Source of the DNA: Candidatus Brevefilum sp.
GTDB lineage: Bacteria; Chloroflexota; Anaerolineae; Anaerolineales; Anaerolineaceae
DNA length: 40,203 nt
NCBI GenBank assembly: GCA_019428905.1
Contig: JAHYJN010000022.1
Location: 1 to 40,203, forward strand
Direction of reading: 5' to 3'
The translations under genes were made by a program, and so were the position numbers. Positions 31,804 through 39,870 of this stretch are shown one piece after another; positions within the stretch are counted from its first letter, which is position 1, and each line of letters starts with the position of its first letter. The notes beneath the pieces are model-generated. The model saw nothing but the letters and a program-made list of their open reading frames with translations. It was not told the DNA's origin and searched no databases.

Positions 31804-32265
31804 TTAAAAGGCGGGCAGGTGGCGATCAACGATCGCCTGGTGCTCTGGAATAAGTTCAGGTAACTGGTCTCTTGAGAAAAAGCGAGCCTCAGCAACCTCT
31901 CTTGAAGGTGCAAAAACTTGGTCGTCTTCCAGCTCTCCAGAAAAGAGCATCTCCATCCTGGCCATTTCTCTTGATTGGAAAACCTCAATCAGCTTCAGGT
32001 TTTTTATCTCAAAACCGGATTCTTCCATCAACTCACGTTGGATGGCCTGGTCTGGATTTTCTCCCCGCATCACATAACCACCCGGAAAGCCCCAAGGTGT
32101 ATTCTTGCGATATGAATGTTTAAATAAAAGGATTTCACCAGTATCGTTTTGGATCAAGATGGATGTGCCCACGACGAATTTTGTATTGAAAAGCCACATC
32201 AAACACGAGCGCATGGATTTGGTCAGGGGCAGGTTGCGCCATAACCAATACAGGAGTTGCTTCAT
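31804..32265 (-). CDS. NUDIX hydrolase, MutT-like
   Basis: 153 residues. The NUDIX box GYVMRGENPDQAIQRELMEE followed by SGF fits the consensus G-x5-E-x7-REUxEExGU. The leading FNTKFVVGTSILIQNDTGEI and HSYRKNTPWGFPGGYV are normal for the family. The long N-terminal extension (about 30 residues, hydrophobic/basic, MKQLLYWLWRNLPL) is unusual for a cytosolic NUDIX protein and may be a membrane-associating helix. Substrate not predictable. It is 28 nt downstream of an isoprenylcysteine-methyltransferase remnant on the same strand and could have been co-transcribed with the lost gene. Confidence 0.9.
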   Translation of the reverse strand: MKQLLYWLWRNLPLTKSMRSCLMWLFNTKFVVGTSILIQNDTGEILLFKHSYRKNTPWGFPGGYVMRGENPDQAIQRELMEESGFEIKNLKLIEVFQSREMARMEMLFSGELEDDQVFAPSREVAEARFFSRDQLPELIPEHQAIVDRHLPAF

Positions 32266-32292: not shown

Positions 32293-32424
32293 CTACCAAA
32301 CACCAGGAAACAACCGGTAGGGCACTTGCTGGGTATAGGCCTGGTAGCCTTCAAGCTTTTGCTGCAAGGCTCGATCTTCCAAACCAGTACGGATGACGAT
32401 GATGATTAGCGTTGCATCTGCCAT
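32293..32424 (-). pseudogene. C-terminal remnant of an isoprenylcysteine carboxyl methyltransferase-like gene
   Basis: Read on the minus strand, 43 residues from an ATG at 32424: a hydrophobic start (MADATLIIIVIRTGLED), then RALQQKLEGYQAYTQQVPYR and LFPGVW, stop. This is the end of ICMT/phospholipid-methyltransferase-like membrane proteins: R-T-x2-E-D-x2-L-x3-L-x-GY-x2-Y-x3-V-x-YRL-x-PG-x-W. The rest of the gene (normally ~150-200 residues with several helices) is not found upstream: there is an in-frame TAA four codons before the ATG. AGAGGA upstream could let it be translated as a micro-protein, though I read it as decay. Residue agreement is high. Confidence 0.75.
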
Positions 32425-32671: not shown

Positions 32672-33397
32672 ATGCAAAAAATCGTTATTCTTGGCGCTAC
32701 TGGCGGGATGGGGTCCGCCGCTGCAAGGCTGTTAACCGCCAAAGGGTACGCGTTGCACCTGGCCGGCCGTGATGAAATCATGCTGAAAGCGTTGGCTTCG
32801 GAGTTGGGCGCTTCGATGACCCTGGGCGATGTGACCGATCCGGCGCTGTTTGAGCGGGTGGCTGTAGATGCCGGGGATACCGTAAGCGGTCTATTGTACG
32901 CTGTGGGCACTTTGAACCTCAAACGCATCAATCGTTTGTCGGTTGAGGATTTCCACAAAGACTATCAAATCAATGCCATTGGTGCTGCTTTGGCCGTGCA
33001 AAGCCTGTTGCCGGCGTTGAAGAACAATCCGAGTCCATCTTCGGTGGTGTTTTTTACCAGTGTGGCTGCCGAGCAAGGCTTTGCATCCCATGCCTCGATG
33101 AGCATGGCCAAGGGCGCCGTGCGGGGGTTGACCCTGGCATTGGCTGCAGAGCTGGCACCGAAAATCCGAGTAAACGCCATCTCGCCCTCGCTAACGGCCA
33201 CCCCGATGGCTGAGAGCTTGCTCTCGAATGAGAAAATGGTGGAGGCGATCAGCAAGCTGCACGCCTTGGAGCGTCTGGGCACCGCTGAGGACATGGCGGC
33301 ATTGGCTGCCTTCTTGTTGTCGGATGAGTCAGGCTGGATTACGGGTCAGATCATTGGCGTGGATGGCGGCCGCTCAACCTTGCGCACGAAAAGTTAG
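32672..33397 (+). CDS. Short-chain dehydrogenase/reductase lacking the catalytic tyrosine
   Basis: 241 residues, with GGAG ahead of the ATG. Cofactor motif ILGATGGMGSAAARLL (GxxGxxG), then LLYAVGTLN in place of the NNAG strand, the catalytic Ser in VVFFTSVAAEQG, and the late IRVNAISPSLTATPMAESLL typical of the family. The tyrosine that should stand four residues before the catalytic Lys in Y-x3-K is replaced by Met (ASMSMAKGAVRGL). Related subfamilies with the same change exist, so it may not be a loss of function, but classical proton-transfer chemistry would be altered. It is 146 nt upstream of the photolyase gene. Confidence 0.88.
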   Translation: MQKIVILGATGGMGSAAARLLTAKGYALHLAGRDEIMLKALASELGASMTLGDVTDPALFERVAVDAGDTVSGLLYAVGTLNLKRINRLSVEDFHKDYQINAIGAALAVQSLLPALKNNPSPSSVVFFTSVAAEQGFASHASMSMAKGAVRGLTLALAAELAPKIRVNAISPSLTATPMAESLLSNEKMVEAISKLHALERLGTAEDMAALAAFLLSDESGWITGQIIGVDGGRSTLRTKS

Positions 33398-33543
33398 CAC
33401 GAAGTGGTTTAGGTAAACCTGTAAATGAACAGATCACAGCCCTCATGCTCTGTGGTCAAGCTGGAGACAACCTCAGATATAATTGGATTGATTGATCATT
33501 CAAGCGCATAATGTAATGCGCCTTTTGCTGAAATGAGCGGTAA

Positions 33544-35064
33544 ATGCCCCTCACGGTCTGGATTCTCGGTGACCAGTTACTCAGTCCACACCCTGCGCTC
33601 CAAAGCCTGGAAAAACAGGTCCTACGGCAGGAGATCATCCTCCTGCTGATTGAAAGCCGTGAGCAAGCCCAGCGTTTGCCCTACCATGCAAAAAAACTGG
33701 TATTGCTGTACAGTGCCATGCGGCATTATGCCGATGGATTGCGGGCCGCAGGCTATCGAGTGGATTACCGGGTCGCATCCAATATAACTGAGGCGATCAC
33801 TTCACACTGGCAAGAATTCCGACCAAACCGCCTGGTGACGATGGCAGCCAGCAGCGTTCGGGGGCGCAGATTTCAGCAGTCCCTCGCTCAGAAATTAGGG
33901 ATCGCAACGCACATCATCCCCAATTCGCAGTTCTTATCTGGTGTCTACGATCCGCTGCCGGATGTGGAACCCGGTCAGTTGGTGCGCCAGGAGCAGTTCT
34001 ATCGGGGCATGCGGCGGCAGTTTAAGCTGCTGATGGATGATCAGGGTCGGCCCGTAGGGGGAACATGGAATTATGATCAGAAAAACCGGCAACCGTTGCC
34101 GAAAGACCTTACCCCACCGGAGATGATTCGTTTCGAGCCGGATGCGCTGACAAAGCAGGTGATGGTTGAGGTGGGTCAATTCGATCATCTGACGGGTTCA
34201 GCAGCAGGATTTGACCTAGCGGTTACGCGTGAAGGCGCGCAACAAGCCGCTGATGATTTTTACACCCATCGCCTGCCGTATTTTGGCACCTATGAAGATG
34301 CCATGCGCCAAAGTGCCCCAGTGATCTTCCACTCAAAGCTGGCCGCGTACTTAAACATTGGATTGTTAACACCGCTGGAGCTTGTGCGGGCGGCAGAAGG
34401 CTGCTATTACGATGGCACAGCTGAGATCAACAATGTGGAAGGTTTCATCCGGCAGGTGATCGGCTGGCGTGAGTACATGTACTGGCAGTACCAGCGTTTG
34501 ATGCCCGGCCTGGGGGCCGAAAATTATTGGGGTTCGGCGAATCCTTTGCCAACATTTTTCTGGAGCGGCGAGACACGCATGAACTGTTTGAGACAGGTTA
34601 TCCAGCGAGTGCTGGATGCGGGTTACGTCCATCATATTGAACGGCTGATGCTGCTTTCGAACTTTTGTCTGCTGGCGGATATCCATCCCGATCAGGTCTA
34701 TGACTGGTTTAGCAGTGCTTTTATCGACGCCTACGAGTGGGTGATGGCCCCCAATGTGTATGGGATGGGTCTGTATGCGGATGGGGGCCAAATCGCCACA
34801 AAACCTTATATCGCATCAGCGAATTACATCAATAAGATGAGTGATTACTGCCTGGCGTGCAGTTTTGACAAGAACAAACGAACCGGTGAACATTCTTGCC
34901 CGTTTAATTTCTTGTATTGGCATTTCCTGCTCAAACATCAGGATAAATTGCGAAAAAATTACCGCATGGCTCGCATGCTGCATAACCTCAAATTTCTTGA
35001 TGATGATGAAAAAGCTGCCGTACAAGCTCAGGCGCAGCGGTTCGTTGGAGCAATGGATAATTAG
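33544..35064 (+). CDS. phrB: Iron-sulfur bacterial cryptochrome/photolyase (FeS-BCP, PhrB-like)
   Basis: 506 residues, close to the ~507 of Agrobacterium PhrB. The start TVWILGDQLLSPHPAL is the N-terminal alpha/beta (DMRL/antenna) domain of this family. The four ligands of the [4Fe-4S] cluster are all present: C348 (TRMNCLRQV), C436, C439 (YCLACSF) and C452 (EHSCPFN), with the same spacing as in PhrB. FAD-binding helix motifs EGFIRQVIGWREYMYWQYQR and NANVYGMG-like (VMAPNVYGMG) precede the cluster region. In the family this repairs (6-4) photoproducts under light. The next gene starts one base after the stop, and the SDR lies upstream. It is probably a light-related function in an otherwise anaerobic cell. 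Confidence 0.93.
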   Translation: MPLTVWILGDQLLSPHPALQSLEKQVLRQEIILLLIESREQAQRLPYHAKKLVLLYSAMRHYADGLRAAGYRVDYRVASNITEAITSHWQEFRPNRLVTMAASSVRGRRFQQSLAQKLGIATHIIPNSQFLSGVYDPLPDVEPGQLVRQEQFYRGMRRQFKLLMDDQGRPVGGTWNYDQKNRQPLPKDLTPPEMIRFEPDALTKQVMVEVGQFDHLTGSAAGFDLAVTREGAQQAADDFYTHRLPYFGTYEDAMRQSAPVIFHSKLAAYLNIGLLTPLELVRAAEGCYYDGTAEINNVEGFIRQVIGWREYMYWQYQRLMPGLGAENYWGSANPLPTFFWSGETRMNCLRQVIQRVLDAGYVHHIERLMLLSNFCLLADIHPDQVYDWFSSAFIDAYEWVMAPNVYGMGLYADGGQIATKPYIASANYINKMSDYCLACSFDKNKRTGEHSCPFNFLYWHFLLKHQDKLRKNYRMARMLHNLKFLDDDEKAAVQAQAQRFVGAMDN

Positions 35065-35065
35065 C

Positions 35066-35530
35066 ATGGCAAATTTTAATTCTCAGAAGTTGCATGTTCA
35101 GTTTAGTGATGGGATGCAGGATCCTTCGAGATTTTTACCCCGCTGTTACACACTGACCCATTCAGACCGGACGGGTGACCTGTTCCTGACGGTTGCGCCG
35201 GCTTATGACCGGGGTCAAATTTCAGGATGGTACACCAAATTAATGCGCGACGAGGTTGTGGGGGAATGGCAAGTTGGTGACTCCCCCAGCCTGCATCTGC
35301 ACTGCCATGTCAGCGGCGGGTTGGTGCTAGGATCGGCGCGCTGGCGTGATGCCATTTTCAGGCAGCACCTGCCGCTGGTGTTGGATGCGGTCTGTTATGG
35401 CGATCGGGACTATTTATCTGCGAACCCCGCGCTCTACGCAGCAGCAATTTTGGTCCACTTCCACGCCAAGCAAGCGACGCTCAACCGTGTTGAGCAATGG
35501 GGGCTGGTATGGAATCATTTAACTGCATAA
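35066..35530 (+). CDS. Bacterial STAY-GREEN (SGR) homologue, putative Mg-dechelatase
   Basis: 154 residues from the ATG at 35066, one base after the photolyase stop. Diagnostic segments of the Staygreen family: RCYTLTHSDRTGDLFLTV, LMRDEVVGEW, LHLHCHVSGG, RDAIFRQHLPLVLDAVCYGD and a late ILVHFHAK. H32, D34 and D62, the residues I recall being reported as important in an Anaerolineae SGR homologue, are all present, at the same numbers. Plant SGR removes Mg from chlorophyll a to give pheophytin a. The host here has no chlorophyll genes in view, so the natural substrate is open. The plant C-terminal Cys-rich motif is absent, as expected for bacterial forms. A longer in-frame reading from 34841 lies in the photolyase gene and is rejected. 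Confidence 0.88.
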   Translation: MANFNSQKLHVQFSDGMQDPSRFLPRCYTLTHSDRTGDLFLTVAPAYDRGQISGWYTKLMRDEVVGEWQVGDSPSLHLHCHVSGGLVLGSARWRDAIFRQHLPLVLDAVCYGDRDYLSANPALYAAAILVHFHAKQATLNRVEQWGLVWNHLTA

Positions 35531-35641: not shown

Positions 35642-37231
35642 CTAGCGGATCACTAGAGGTAGATAATTCACATCATAATCGTAGGTGATAAATAACTCAT
35701 CTACAGTATCAACGTCTTGATCAGCGAGATACACAACGCCTCGATCATTGGGTGTAATCTGATATAAGCGGACCGAACCTCCGGGGACCATTTCAGGGTT
35801 AATTTTGTATGTTGTCCCACCTGTACTGGGGACAACATACAAATTAAAAACGCTGTCGATTTCCTGGTCAGCACGATAGACGACATTCTGGCTATTATTG
35901 GATATCCGAAAATTGCTCACATTTCCACCTGGGGGAAGATCCGTATTTAACCGCACACCCCAGTTGCCAGCCATATTCACAGCGAATAGTTCATTTACCC
36001 CTACAAAGTAGTAGCTTGCAATAAAAACAACACCTATACTGTTGGGTGAGATTTTAAAATTTATGACATCTCCTGTGTCAATCATGCCTTTATTAAGCCG
36101 TTCCTTTGTCCCGCCGTTAATTGAAACGGAATAGAGATCATAACGATTATCCATCTCAAGATCGCCCGAGAAAACCACCCATTGACCATCGGAGGATATT
36201 TCAAATAAATAAACGGATTTTAAAGGGTCAGCAAAAGTGTCAGTAATCAAGGGGATTCTGTGTGTGCTGCCATTGACAGGAGCCCGATAAAGCAGATTCA
36301 TATATCGGGTAGTCTCGTCTGCTTTGTATACGACATACGCGCTGTCTGGGGTAATTTGAAAACTAGATACACTTCCTCCTGCAACCAGAGTACCATTAAG
36401 CTTTATCGGTGACACAGGGTAACTTTCTATTGGGATTGAAAAAAGCTCATACCCACTACCGGTGTGCTTCCGATATATGACATACGCACCATCAGGGCTG
36501 ATCTTAACAAAGCGATCAATTTCACCAACTTCAAGTGATCGGGGTGTATGATCACCCACCAAACTGGCCTTGAAAAGCTCTTTGTTTCCGGGATTAGGCC
36601 ATGGGTCTTGCACGTAAATAACAGACTGATTATTGGGGGTGATCTCGTATTCGATAATCCCCACATACCATGCCGAGGAGATTGGCTGGATTGGGCCGCC
36701 AATTATCGGAACACGGTACAGCTTTCTCTGCCGGGTTTCTGAAGACACCAACACAAACAATACATTGGCAGAATCATTGGTGACCCGAATGTTTGATGGG
36801 TAAGAATCATCATATGCTTGGTTCAGTTCAATAGAAGGACCACCCCCGATAGGAACAGAATGTAAAATGATGCAATGATTATCACCTTCTCCATAGTAAA
36901 CAACGCGCTGACTATCTGGTGTGATTAAAAATCCACCTATACCACATTCGTCGGGCAAATCGATCGAAAGCTGCACACGCGGACCGCCCACCGTGCGGAC
37001 GCTGAATAGTTCGTTTTTATCATTTTCCAGCACGTCTCCTCTGAAAACAGTGTACTGCCCGTCCGGGCTGATCTTAAAATCAAGTACCTTTCCTCCCACG
37101 GTCAGATTCCCACTTATCTTGTTGTTGCGAATGACAGCATGGGCGATTTCGGTAAAAATGAGGAGCAGCAGCAGGACAACTATGAGCCCTAAGATAGGTG
37201 AGAAACGTTTCAGATAGGTATTTTTGAACAT
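35642..37231 (-). CDS. Secreted TolB/DPP-like beta-propeller protein
   Basis: 529 residues; ribosome binding site GGAGG 5 nt upstream. The N-terminal segment (about 12-35, LGLIVVLLLLLIFTEIAHAV) is a signal peptide or anchor. The rest is a repeated motif of ~45-50 residues: 'F-x-I-(S/T)-P-(D/N)-x2-x-V-V-Y' followed by 'L-(Y/F)-x-V-P-(I/V)-x-G-G', at least ten times (for instance LDFKISPDGQYTVFRGD, FRISNNSQNVVYRAD, YQITPNDRGVVYLAD). This is the WD40-like/PD40 pattern of TolB propellers. No peptidase domain is attached. Role likely binding or display outside the cell; the specific ligand is unknown. It stands alone, on the opposite strand to the SGR gene. Confidence 0.85.
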   Translation of the reverse strand: MFKNTYLKRFSPILGLIVVLLLLLIFTEIAHAVIRNNKISGNLTVGGKVLDFKISPDGQYTVFRGDVLENDKNELFSVRTVGGPRVQLSIDLPDECGIGGFLITPDSQRVVYYGEGDNHCIILHSVPIGGGPSIELNQAYDDSYPSNIRVTNDSANVLFVLVSSETRQRKLYRVPIIGGPIQPISSAWYVGIIEYEITPNNQSVIYVQDPWPNPGNKELFKASLVGDHTPRSLEVGEIDRFVKISPDGAYVIYRKHTGSGYELFSIPIESYPVSPIKLNGTLVAGGSVSSFQITPDSAYVVYKADETTRYMNLLYRAPVNGSTHRIPLITDTFADPLKSVYLFEISSDGQWVVFSGDLEMDNRYDLYSVSINGGTKERLNKGMIDTGDVINFKISPNSIGVVFIASYYFVGVNELFAVNMAGNWGVRLNTDLPPGGNVSNFRISNNSQNVVYRADQEIDSVFNLYVVPSTGGTTYKINPEMVPGGSVRLYQITPNDRGVVYLADQDVDTVDELFITYDYDVNYLPLVIR

Positions 37232-37759: not shown

Positions 37760-39439
37760 TCAAGGTTGGTTTGCAATTAAGATGAATTGTTCCCAGGGTT
37801 CTAAATCAGGAATTTGATACGCCGTCAGGCTCCCATTCTCACCAAAAGTGATCTCACCAAATTCACCTTCACCTAAGAGCACCTGCAATGCGTATTGACC
37901 TGAAAGCGGGCTTTCTTCGATAGAAATCGTGCAGTCTTCCATTGGCCTGCGGGTGAGGTTGGCCAGGAGGATGATGGCCTGGTTTTCCTCCACGCGCAGG
38001 ACCGGGTAGAGCTGCCGACAGGTGGAGGTGAAGGGCAGGTAAGCGCCTGTCCGCAGGGCTGGGTGTCCATTCCTGAGGTGGACGAGGGTGCGATATTGGG
38101 TGAGCAAAGAGTCAGGGTCGCCATCCTGCAGGGCGACATTGACCTCCTGGTAATCATCGTTTTGGGGCTGCCAGGGCGTGCCCGAGGTAAACCCGGCACC
38201 AGGCTCGCCTGACCACTGCATGGGTGTGCGCAGCAGTTCATCGGGTTTATTGCCCAGCATGCCGATCTCCTCGCCATAATAGATAAAGGGGACACCCGGG
38301 CCGGTCAGGTAGATATAGGCAGCTGATTTGGCTTTCTGAAGGTCGCCGGTATATAAAGACATCACCCGCTGTTGATCATGGTTGGAGAGGAAGGTGCTGA
38401 AATGCCCATCAGGAAAATAGGAGAGGGTATCCAGGTAGGATTTGATGATACGGGAAGGATCTGGGGCAAAGATCCCGCCTTTGATATCCTCTGCCAGGTC
38501 AAACATGAACAGGGAGTCCATCCCATCGCCGTACCTGGCGGTAACTTGTAAGTCGGTCCATACCTCGCCGACGGTGAAGGCCTCGGGATTGATCGGCTTA
38601 TAAAAATCACGCCAATCTTCAAACCATTGGATGGTTTCTTTGGTATCCTGCTGGGCGACGCCGTCTGCGTATAGGTAACGGGCGGCATCCACGCGAAAAC
38701 CATCAACGCCCACTTCTTCCAGCCAGAATTTGGAAATATTGAGGATTTCTTCGGTGACAGCCGGGTTATCATAGTTCAGATCGGGCATGCCGCCCCAAAA
38801 GATACCGTAGTAATATAAGCCGTTGGTCGCGTCGCGGTGCCAGGCATTCTGAAACCAAGGTCCGGGGATTTGCGGGTTGGTCTCTGACCAGACGTACCAG
38901 TCATGGTATTCAGATTCTGGGTCACGCGAAGCCTCGAACCAGGGATGCTGGGTCGAGGTGTGGTTGATGACCAGGTCGATGATGATGTTAATACCGCGTT
39001 TTTCGGCTTCAGCCAGCAATTGTTTGAAATCATCCATGGTCCCGTAATCGGGATTGACCGCGTAATAGTCGGTGACGTCGTAGCCGTGATAGGAGGGCGA
39101 GGGGTTGATGGGCATCAACCAAATGCCGCCGATACCCAGGTCATCATGCGTGTCCGGGTTCCCATCATTCAGGTAGTCCAACTGCTGGATAATGCCCTGG
39201 AAATCCCCGACCCCATCCCCGTCACTGTCTTTGAAGCTGCGCACAAAGATCTCGTAAAAGACAACATCCTGCCACCAAGCTTCGGCTTCGGGTTCAGGTT
39301 CTGGGGTGAGGGTTGGCGTAGGTGCGGGTCGGGTTGCGGTAGGGGCTGGGGTGACCTCTGTTGTGGTTTGCGCATTGCATCCAGCGGCGAAGATCAACAA
39401 CAGACATAAACTAAGGGTCAATTTACGAGTGAGATCCAT
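37760..39439 (-). CDS. GH13 alpha-amylase-family lipoprotein
   Basis: 559 residues from the ATG at 39439; a longer frame to 39469 is less likely, as GGAG precedes 39439. MDLTRKLTLSLCLLLIFAAG then C21 is a lipobox (FAAGC). A Thr/Pro-rich linker (about 25-50) precedes the (beta/alpha)8 barrel: region I DLVINH, nucleophile D251 in GFRVDAARY, acid/base E292 in FTVGEVW, and D355 in FLSNHDQQRV. The C-terminal ~100 residues form a typical beta-domain. It hydrolyses alpha-glucosidic bonds at the cell surface, with alpha-amylase, alpha-glucosidase or oligo-1,6-glucosidase specificity; region I and the short barrel resemble the oligosaccharide-cleaving types. No transporter genes are adjacent. Confidence 0.95.
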   Translation of the reverse strand: MDLTRKLTLSLCLLLIFAAGCNAQTTTEVTPAPTATRPAPTPTLTPEPEPEAEAWWQDVVFYEIFVRSFKDSDGDGVGDFQGIIQQLDYLNDGNPDTHDDLGIGGIWLMPINPSPSYHGYDVTDYYAVNPDYGTMDDFKQLLAEAEKRGINIIIDLVINHTSTQHPWFEASRDPESEYHDWYVWSETNPQIPGPWFQNAWHRDATNGLYYYGIFWGGMPDLNYDNPAVTEEILNISKFWLEEVGVDGFRVDAARYLYADGVAQQDTKETIQWFEDWRDFYKPINPEAFTVGEVWTDLQVTARYGDGMDSLFMFDLAEDIKGGIFAPDPSRIIKSYLDTLSYFPDGHFSTFLSNHDQQRVMSLYTGDLQKAKSAAYIYLTGPGVPFIYYGEEIGMLGNKPDELLRTPMQWSGEPGAGFTSGTPWQPQNDDYQEVNVALQDGDPDSLLTQYRTLVHLRNGHPALRTGAYLPFTSTCRQLYPVLRVEENQAIILLANLTRRPMEDCTISIEESPLSGQYALQVLLGEGEFGEITFGENGSLTAYQIPDLEPWEQFILIANQP

Positions 39440-39870
39440 AATTTTTGGCTCCGATCGAATGTAGGTCAAGAGCGGTGGTAATCAGTCACATTTTATTGGA
39501 AGATTATATCCTGTTAAGGTGAGTATGAATTGGAAATTATGGGCACAGTATGCTGTGCCCAACCTTCTTATCGATTTTCACGGCTTAAAAGACACGCATT
39601 GTGATTTTATTAATGTTACTGGAAGGGTCAAATATTGAGCTTCAGGTTGTAGTGATTAAAAACAAACACCCCCGGCCGGCGTATACCAGGGGTGGAGGAA
39701 GATGTCACTGTTATGGTTGGTGTGCTATTTCACAACCGGAGGGCATTATAACATGTTTTCAATTTAAGACACCCAAAACCACGAAACTCTAACCAAATAT
39801 TAATGGTGGAAAATGCTTGTGGGATTCATCATGCGACCAGTTTCGATTGGGGGCTTTTAAAAAAGAAAAG
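39440..39870. other. 431-bp intergenic region between GH13 gene and tRNA-Asn
   Basis: No coding region found. It contains a short palindrome (39541-39560) and, at 39853-39871, a GCTTTT / AAAAGC hairpin with an A-rich loop, that could terminate the tRNA transcript. Confidence 0.55.
39541..39560. repeat. 20-nt palindrome GGGCACAG/CTGTGCCC
   Basis: GGGCACAG-TATG-CTGTGCCC, an 8-bp perfect stem with a 4-nt loop. It is one more distinct short palindrome of the kind scattered in the window. Confidence 0.65.

Follow-up and report, generated by a model that had tools for sequence, protein, structure and literature searches.

Published work on AbSGR-h, the Mg-dechelatase homologue of Anaerolineae bacterium SM23_63 (PDB 7Y5Y), describes its activity and structure. 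In the portions drawn on here, this work leaves unanswered why chlorophyll-free organisms keep a chlorophyll Mg-dechelatase (PMC8531759; PMC11006732). The same question is raised by a locus of Candidatus Brevefilum sp., an apparently non-phototrophic Chloroflexota bacterium. The stretch of DNA analyzed, referred to below as the window, comprises 40,203 nucleotides (GCA_019428905.1, contig JAHYJN010000022.1, positions 1–40,203). It carries the gene of a STAY-GREEN (SGR) homologue and, in front of it, the following features; G168 and G200 are congeners of the host.

31804–32265, minus strand: NUDIX hydrolase (PF00293, 73 bits; 62% identity to a G200 gene)
32296–32412, minus strand: remnant of an ICMT/PEMT-like methyltransferase, 39 C-terminal residues (tblastn to the G168 and G200 genes)
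32672–33397, plus strand: SDR-family oxidoreductase, 241 aa (PF13561, 167 bits), 146 nt 5' of the photolyase gene
33504–33521, plus strand: hairpin-forming palindrome, terminator-like, in the SDR–photolyase gap (terminator scan)
33544–35064, plus strand: FeS-BCP type (6-4) photolyase/cryptochrome-like protein, 506 aa (PF04244, 183 bits; phmmer)
35066–35530, plus strand: SGR homologue of the Staygreen/Mg-dechelatase family (PF12638, 147 bits; 7y5y by sequence and fold)

The SGR protein and its host

The original prediction placed a 154-residue Staygreen protein at 35066–35530. The reading frame begins with ATG at 35066, has its stop within these coordinates and encodes 154 residues, and all three Staygreen segments quoted in the prediction, TLTHSDRTGDL and HCHVSGG among them, are present. 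The Pfam Staygreen profile PF12638 matches the protein over positions 1–145 of 147 with a score far above its cut-off of 27 bits (E 4.6e-43), and no second PF12638 match occurs in the host genome, which is 92% complete and comprises 149 contigs totaling 3.04 Mb.

The closest solved chain is 7y5y (AbSGR-h; sequence E 3.4e-54, 55% identity), with the same fold and active site. H32, D34 and D62 had been expected at the numbers of a characterized Anaerolineae homologue, and alignment with 7y5y gives exactly this numbering. R26, Y28, T29, T31, T36, R61 and E63 are also identical, and R94 and D113 correspond to R95 and D114 of 7y5y. According to the part of PMC8531759 consulted, the D34N and D62N variants of AbSGR-h are soluble but inactive, and H32A is weakly active. 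In an alignment of 79 SGR rows, including the window protein and 7y5y (L046 was left out of residue counts and of the tree), H32 and D34 are found in 78 rows, the remaining row having unread bases at those sites; D62 is likewise found in 78, with V in the remaining one.

A single-sequence structure model of the protein was useless (pLDDT 34) and was replaced by an AlphaFold model with 32 aligned sequences as input (mean pLDDT 83.8). This model has the predicted SGR fold: a Foldseek search of the PDB returned 7y5y at the top (E 1e-21, TM 0.91, rmsd 1.4) and no other chain at E <= 0.001. Judged by its homology, the window protein is very probably a Mg-dechelatase. Its likeness to plant STAY-GREEN (SGR/NYE1) is one of membership in the same Pfam family; the same reaction is described for plant SGR and AbSGR-h in the consulted parts of PMC8531759 and PMC11006732. 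Plant SGR acts on the host's own chlorophyll during senescence, whereas the window's host has no bchL above cut-off.

The latter observation extends to the other SGR genomes searched for this gene. BchL/ChlL (TIGR01281) was above cut-off in none of 39 SGR genomes, the window's own included, absences that are provisional since many of these are drafts; weak matches below cut-off occurred in 36 of the 39, and one of 14 control genomes had a match above it. Thus, of the earlier claim of a Staygreen homologue in a probable non-phototroph, the family and the active site stand, and the lack of chlorophyll synthesis is supported by the bchL count.

Few Chloroflexota genomes carry SGR (4 of 400 sampled, three of them from the same genus as the host, the host counted). 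A pattern-based scan of genome contigs gave 40 SGR loci in Anaerolineae and other Chloroflexota, Asgard archaea, Bathyarchaeota and Firmicutes; none was found in a viral contig collection. Some copies are truncated or contain internal stops. A quick SGR tree mixes the phyla and has many weak forks.

The photolyase gene in front of SGR

The photolyase gene ends with TAG at 35062–35064, a single nucleotide before the ATG of SGR and on the same strand. This arrangement, which the original prediction does not mention, is more informative than the identity of SGR in a non-phototroph. By sequence, the photolyase is a member of the FeS-BCP (6-4) PhrB/CryB family (phmmer: 8ijy, E 4.2e-135; PhrB, 4dja, E 3.5e-118 over residues 4–505), and Cys residues in its C-terminal half are aligned in these comparisons.

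The SDR gene further upstream may or may not lie on the same transcript. The terminator-like hairpin in the 146-nt gap could mark the end of the SDR transcript or be an operator, and its presence there means that SDR is possibly transcribed apart. In the whole window, the terminator scan gave 8 such sites against 3.8 ± 2.2 in shuffled sequences, and the promoter scan gave 5 sites against 3.8 ± 2.1. No clear operator was seen in the aligned upstream regions of the window and G168. Elsewhere, the host has a CarH-like gene, G000:C92, which scores 135 bits against a cut-off of 400.

Comparison with the congeners suggests that this arrangement arose in the lineage of the host. In G168 and G200, a whole ICMT/PEMT-like gene is divergent to SGR according to Pfam matches and locus maps, and no photolyase is found beside SGR. 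The window retains a remnant of this methyltransferase gene (tblastn: 72% identity, E 2.8e-13 to G168; 59%, E 1.6e-10 to G200). In G200, a NUDIX gene follows the ICMT of the ICMT–SGR pair; the window NUDIX gene is its homologue and therefore marks the old SGR locus. G168 has an SDR gene (68% identity) before a photolyase gene (56%) on another contig, without SGR after them. The simplest history for these three genomes would be the arrival of an SDR–photolyase pair in the space separating ICMT from SGR, by which ICMT was destroyed and SGR came to follow the photolyase.

On the 3' side of SGR, two apparently unrelated features are found on the minus strand: weak DPPIV/WD40-like propeller matches (35642–37231) and an alpha-amylase family protein (37760–39469). 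Elsewhere the host genome has two heliorhodopsin genes, one of which (L119, G000:C33:7292-8050) faces a convergent gene resembling that of the methionine sulfoxide reductase MsrB.

Light-related genes at other SGR loci

A photolyase or heliorhodopsin gene was present within the fetched flanks of 27 of 66 SGR loci, the window included, against none of 60 random stretches of 16.4 kb from eight SGR-bearing genomes. This control is partly circular, because SGR loci were themselves the source of the query families, and one photolyase query was introduced after the loci had been inspected; before that query was added, 24 of the 66 loci had one of five light families. The 27 loci are divided into 18 of 47 from Asgard archaea and 9 of 19 others, the latter set including the window and one Bacillota locus. 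Neither gene was seen in the flanks of the remaining 39, some of which are shortened by contig ends.

The set of 66 was defined as follows. L008, L012 and L014 (duplicates of L007, L006 and L005) and L084 (the same locus as L031) were dropped before counting, as was L047 (G434), where the contig ends within SGR; this locus has a peroxiredoxin gene and shows neither photolyase nor heliorhodopsin. L048–L077 were replaced by wider stretches, and G401 and G552 contribute two loci each. The SGR of G457 and G550, the second G413 fragment, one G445 fragment and the second G551 copy are outside the locus set, their genomes being kept in the Asgard counts. The Firmicute loci L033–L044 and L046 were run apart from the 66, which include the Bacillota locus L021. 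At these 14 Firmicute loci, L021 among them, neither photolyase nor heliorhodopsin was found.

Whole-genome counts are free of the circularity that affects the random-stretch control. Heliorhodopsin (PF18761) occurred in 19 of the 39 SGR genomes (Firmicutes 0/13, others 19/26) and in none of 14 controls. For the Asgard phylum, understood as the phylum of Heimdallarchaeote G413 with assignment taken from the loci within it, SGR was found in 49 of 227 genomes. Heliorhodopsin was present in 36 of these 49 carriers against 24 of the 178 others (p 1.7e-15), and in 30 of 40 against the same 24 of 178 when the nine discovery genomes were removed (p 4.6e-14); these Asgard counts are inflated by shared ancestry and transfer. 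A rough neighbor-pair check, which assumes that the order of genome handles follows kinship, gave 18 pairs for the association, 2 against and 10 ties. Class I photolyase showed a weaker association (10/49 SGR genomes against 8/178, p 0.001; a G591 match below cut-off was left out).

Physical proximity was also observed. Heliorhodopsin was located within 4.2 kb of SGR in 13 of the 36 Asgard genomes having both (0.14 expected), and in five of them it lies directly upstream of SGR on the same strand, with 61–166 bp between the matches. In G495 and G497, a convergent photolyase gene is 31–34 bp from SGR. UvdE, a YbgA-type DUF1722 protein, peroxiredoxin and photolyases matching PF00875 only are recurrent at archaeal SGR loci. 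A Bathyarchaeote locus (L023) has SGR, then MsrB, a DUF1722 protein and heliorhodopsin.

Class I photolyase (PF03441) was matched no more than twice in any of the 39 SGR genomes. Fourteen of these genomes, Chloroflexota and Asgard pooled, have a full-length copy, and in seven of the 14 it lies no more than 8 kb from SGR, where uniform placement would give 0.08. Each of the two SGR copies of G401 lies near a separate photolyase gene. The order of genes in L011 is a CarH-like B12 regulator, a DUF1731 epimerase, a small gene, a CrtD-like desaturase, photolyase, a small gene, SGR, an NmrA-DUF2867 protein and an MFS pump, where the CarH-like and CrtD-like matches are both below cut-off. In G402, G407, G406 and G011, the distance between SGR and a CarH-like gene (128–152 bits) is about 6–17 kb. 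Assignment of the CarH-like genes as CarH proper was rejected: the matches are under the 400-bit cut-off in all 39 genomes, and the L106 protein has only B12-binding domains.

The SGR of another locus, L015, is identical to AbSGR-h over all 147 residues compared, so that the assayed and crystallized enzyme has a counterpart in a photolyase-containing locus. This SGR closes a co-directional run with a photolyase, an NmrA-DUF2867 protein and a TspO-like protein. L015 has a class I photolyase about 6 kb upstream of SGR, whereas that of the window is of the FeS type and directly upstream. Among Chloroflexota, heliorhodopsin is present in 12 of 15 SGR carriers against 53 of 396 genomes without SGR, a comparison confounded by kinship, since heliorhodopsin is found in members of the host's genus and family whether or not they have SGR.

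SGR is thus linked repeatedly to photolyase or heliorhodopsin in Chloroflexota, Asgard archaea and a Bathyarchaeon. Before inclusion of the PF00875-only photolyases, a minimum of 18 switches between linkage and its absence was counted on the quick tree; gain or loss of the linkage was thus frequent. These arrangements suggest that SGR enzymes encoded beside light-sensing and light-repair genes belong to the light response.

Several other genes were observed near SGR. A TetA-like MFS pump is present at 16 of the 66 loci and a TspO-like protein at 5. The MFS neighbors scored best on TetA models but far under cut-off, and their reading as resistance genes was abandoned for that of pumps. The TspO/MBR-like membrane proteins are encoded in the Anaerolineae loci L015 (5366-6148), L016 and L018 and the Asgard loci L101 and L103; against a Pfam cut-off of 24, L015 passes narrowly (27.3) and L018 misses narrowly (23.3), and neither Asgard homologue is matched by Pfam. 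A gene for a 200-residue SAM-dependent methyltransferase, which may be a pathway partner, is adjacent or close to SGR at 17 of the 47 Asgard loci (e.g., L078, L085 and L103) and is present in one of the 60 random stretches. Eight Asgard loci (L091, L092, L093, L094, L095, L104, L105 and L113) share a further gene near SGR or heliorhodopsin, the product of which, as tested for L091, matches ATP10 (PF05176). Tocopherol-cyclase-like proteins (PF14249) together with an MFS gene adjoin SGR in a marine-biofilm Chloroflexi locus (L005:12474-13298) and in a Heimdallarchaeote (L025:7000-7947). The SGR region of G011 contains a Rieske oxygenase and an MFS gene; the Rieske protein was considered as a plant-type PAO-like partner and rejected, because its match is to VanA_C, with none reported to a pheophorbide oxygenase family.

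Proposed role and competing explanations

The window SGR could function as a Mg-dechelatase in a light/UV-stress program, probably acting on scavenged chlorophyll-type photosensitizers. Its activity is taken from homology and its role from synteny, and the probability of this reading is put at roughly 0.55. Photolyase and SGR would probably be co-transcribed, perhaps together with the upstream SDR gene, and SGR would act, presumably upon light induction, within the cell's answer to light and UV. By the scheme published for AbSGR-h, the likely one here, D34 would coordinate and destabilize the central Mg, and H32 and D62 would handle protons, yielding a free-base tetrapyrrole. Likely substrates are pigments of the chlorophyll type that the cell takes up, or adsorbs, from detritus; such pigments would be dangerous photosensitizers in illuminated sediment or mats, and their conversion may be photoprotective. 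Mg-free chlorins are themselves photosensitizers. Demetallation alone would therefore be no detoxification, and later export, breakdown or binding would be needed. The product might be exported or processed by the TetA-like MFS pump or the TspO-like protein encoded near SGR in relatives, both being candidates; TspO proteins bind porphyrins.

Against a light-response role stand the hairpin at 33504–33521, the unlinked SGR genes of G168 and G200, the Firmicute loci and the 39 of 66 loci with neither gene. Alternatively, the host could degrade detrital chlorophyll for C, N or Mg in sediment, so that the photolyase linkage would reflect an illuminated habitat without shared regulation. The origin of 31 of the 40 SGR loci from metagenome-assembled genomes, one of them from a marine rock biofilm, is compatible with such catabolism, as are the substrate specificity of AbSGR-h, described as low among chlorophylls in the consulted part of PMC11006732, and the Rieske oxygenase and MFS gene of G011. 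However, the linkage is gene-to-gene, with 1 to 300 nt in several genomes, for which habitat sharing alone is insufficient; moreover, the G011 Rieske protein is the VanA_C match described above, and no consistent catabolic partner was seen. This explanation is judged improbable. Much the same standing is given to the possibility that SGR travels in islands of rarely used light-stress genes, its position being functionally meaningless. The patchy distribution in Chloroflexota, the mixing of phyla with many weak forks in the tree, the several truncated or interrupted copies and the lack of an adjoining photolyase in G168 and G200 would all be expected of a hitch-hiking gene. Such passive transfer agrees poorly with the linkage of three photolyase types (class I, PF00875-only and FeS-type) and of heliorhodopsin in differing arrangements, with the 18 or more changes of linked state and with the five closely spaced same-strand heliorhodopsin–SGR pairs.

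A further explanation concerns the substrate: the native one could be another metallated tetrapyrrole, e.g., a mis-metallated porphyrin or a corphin/corrin intermediate, and activity on chlorophyll would then be promiscuous. The title of Obata et al. 2019 was counted in its favor. Ferrochelatase (PF00762) was above cut-off in 11 of the 39 SGR genomes, many of them drafts: its presence in 10 of 13 Firmicutes also speaks for such a substrate, but its detection in only one of 26 others makes a protoporphyrin-type substrate less likely there. No match above cut-off was found in the window's own genome or in the nine Asgard carriers tested, by which an endogenous protoporphyrin-type substrate is mildly disfavored. 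The nearly invariant active-site residues also argue against this explanation, which is considered rather unlikely. Scavenged chlorophyll-type sensitizers are favored instead, because bchL was above cut-off in none of the 39 hosts and ferrochelatase was not above cut-off in 25 of the 26 non-Firmicutes. Since SGR is repeatedly placed with light-sensing and UV-repair genes while the type of photolyase varies by lineage, a light-response role in non-phototrophs is the best explanation.

The genomic context of SGR, namely its linkage to photolyase and heliorhodopsin, appears to be new; SGR homologues of non-photosynthetic prokaryotes, like the activity of AbSGR-h, have been published before, as the consulted parts of PMC8531759 and PMC11006732 attest. 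Narrow literature searches joining photolyase with stay-green or dechelatase gave nothing relevant, the sole match for dechelatase and photolyase being, from the part seen, a mulberry transcriptome study. Searches joining heliorhodopsin with staygreen or stay-green, and stay-green with photolyase, light-inducible and bacteria, found no paper; a looser search had none with heliorhodopsin among the matches listed. In the part consulted, PMC8612252 reports heliorhodopsins near photolyase, UvdE and carotenoid genes, which also recur at SGR loci; its main text has no word beginning with "stay".

More broadly, and more tentatively than the reading of the window itself, the Staygreen Mg-dechelatase might be a conserved effector of heliorhodopsin-, CarH- and photolyase-associated light programs in non-phototrophic Chloroflexota, Asgard archaea and Bathyarchaeota, and Mg removal a form of heterotroph photoprotection predating its use in green plants. 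The gene-level link of SGR to photolyases and heliorhodopsin makes both light induction and the tetrapyrrole substrate directly testable. It offers a concrete genetic partner for heliorhodopsin, the function of which is unsettled, and would bear on the origin of the plant chlorophyll-breakdown enzyme.
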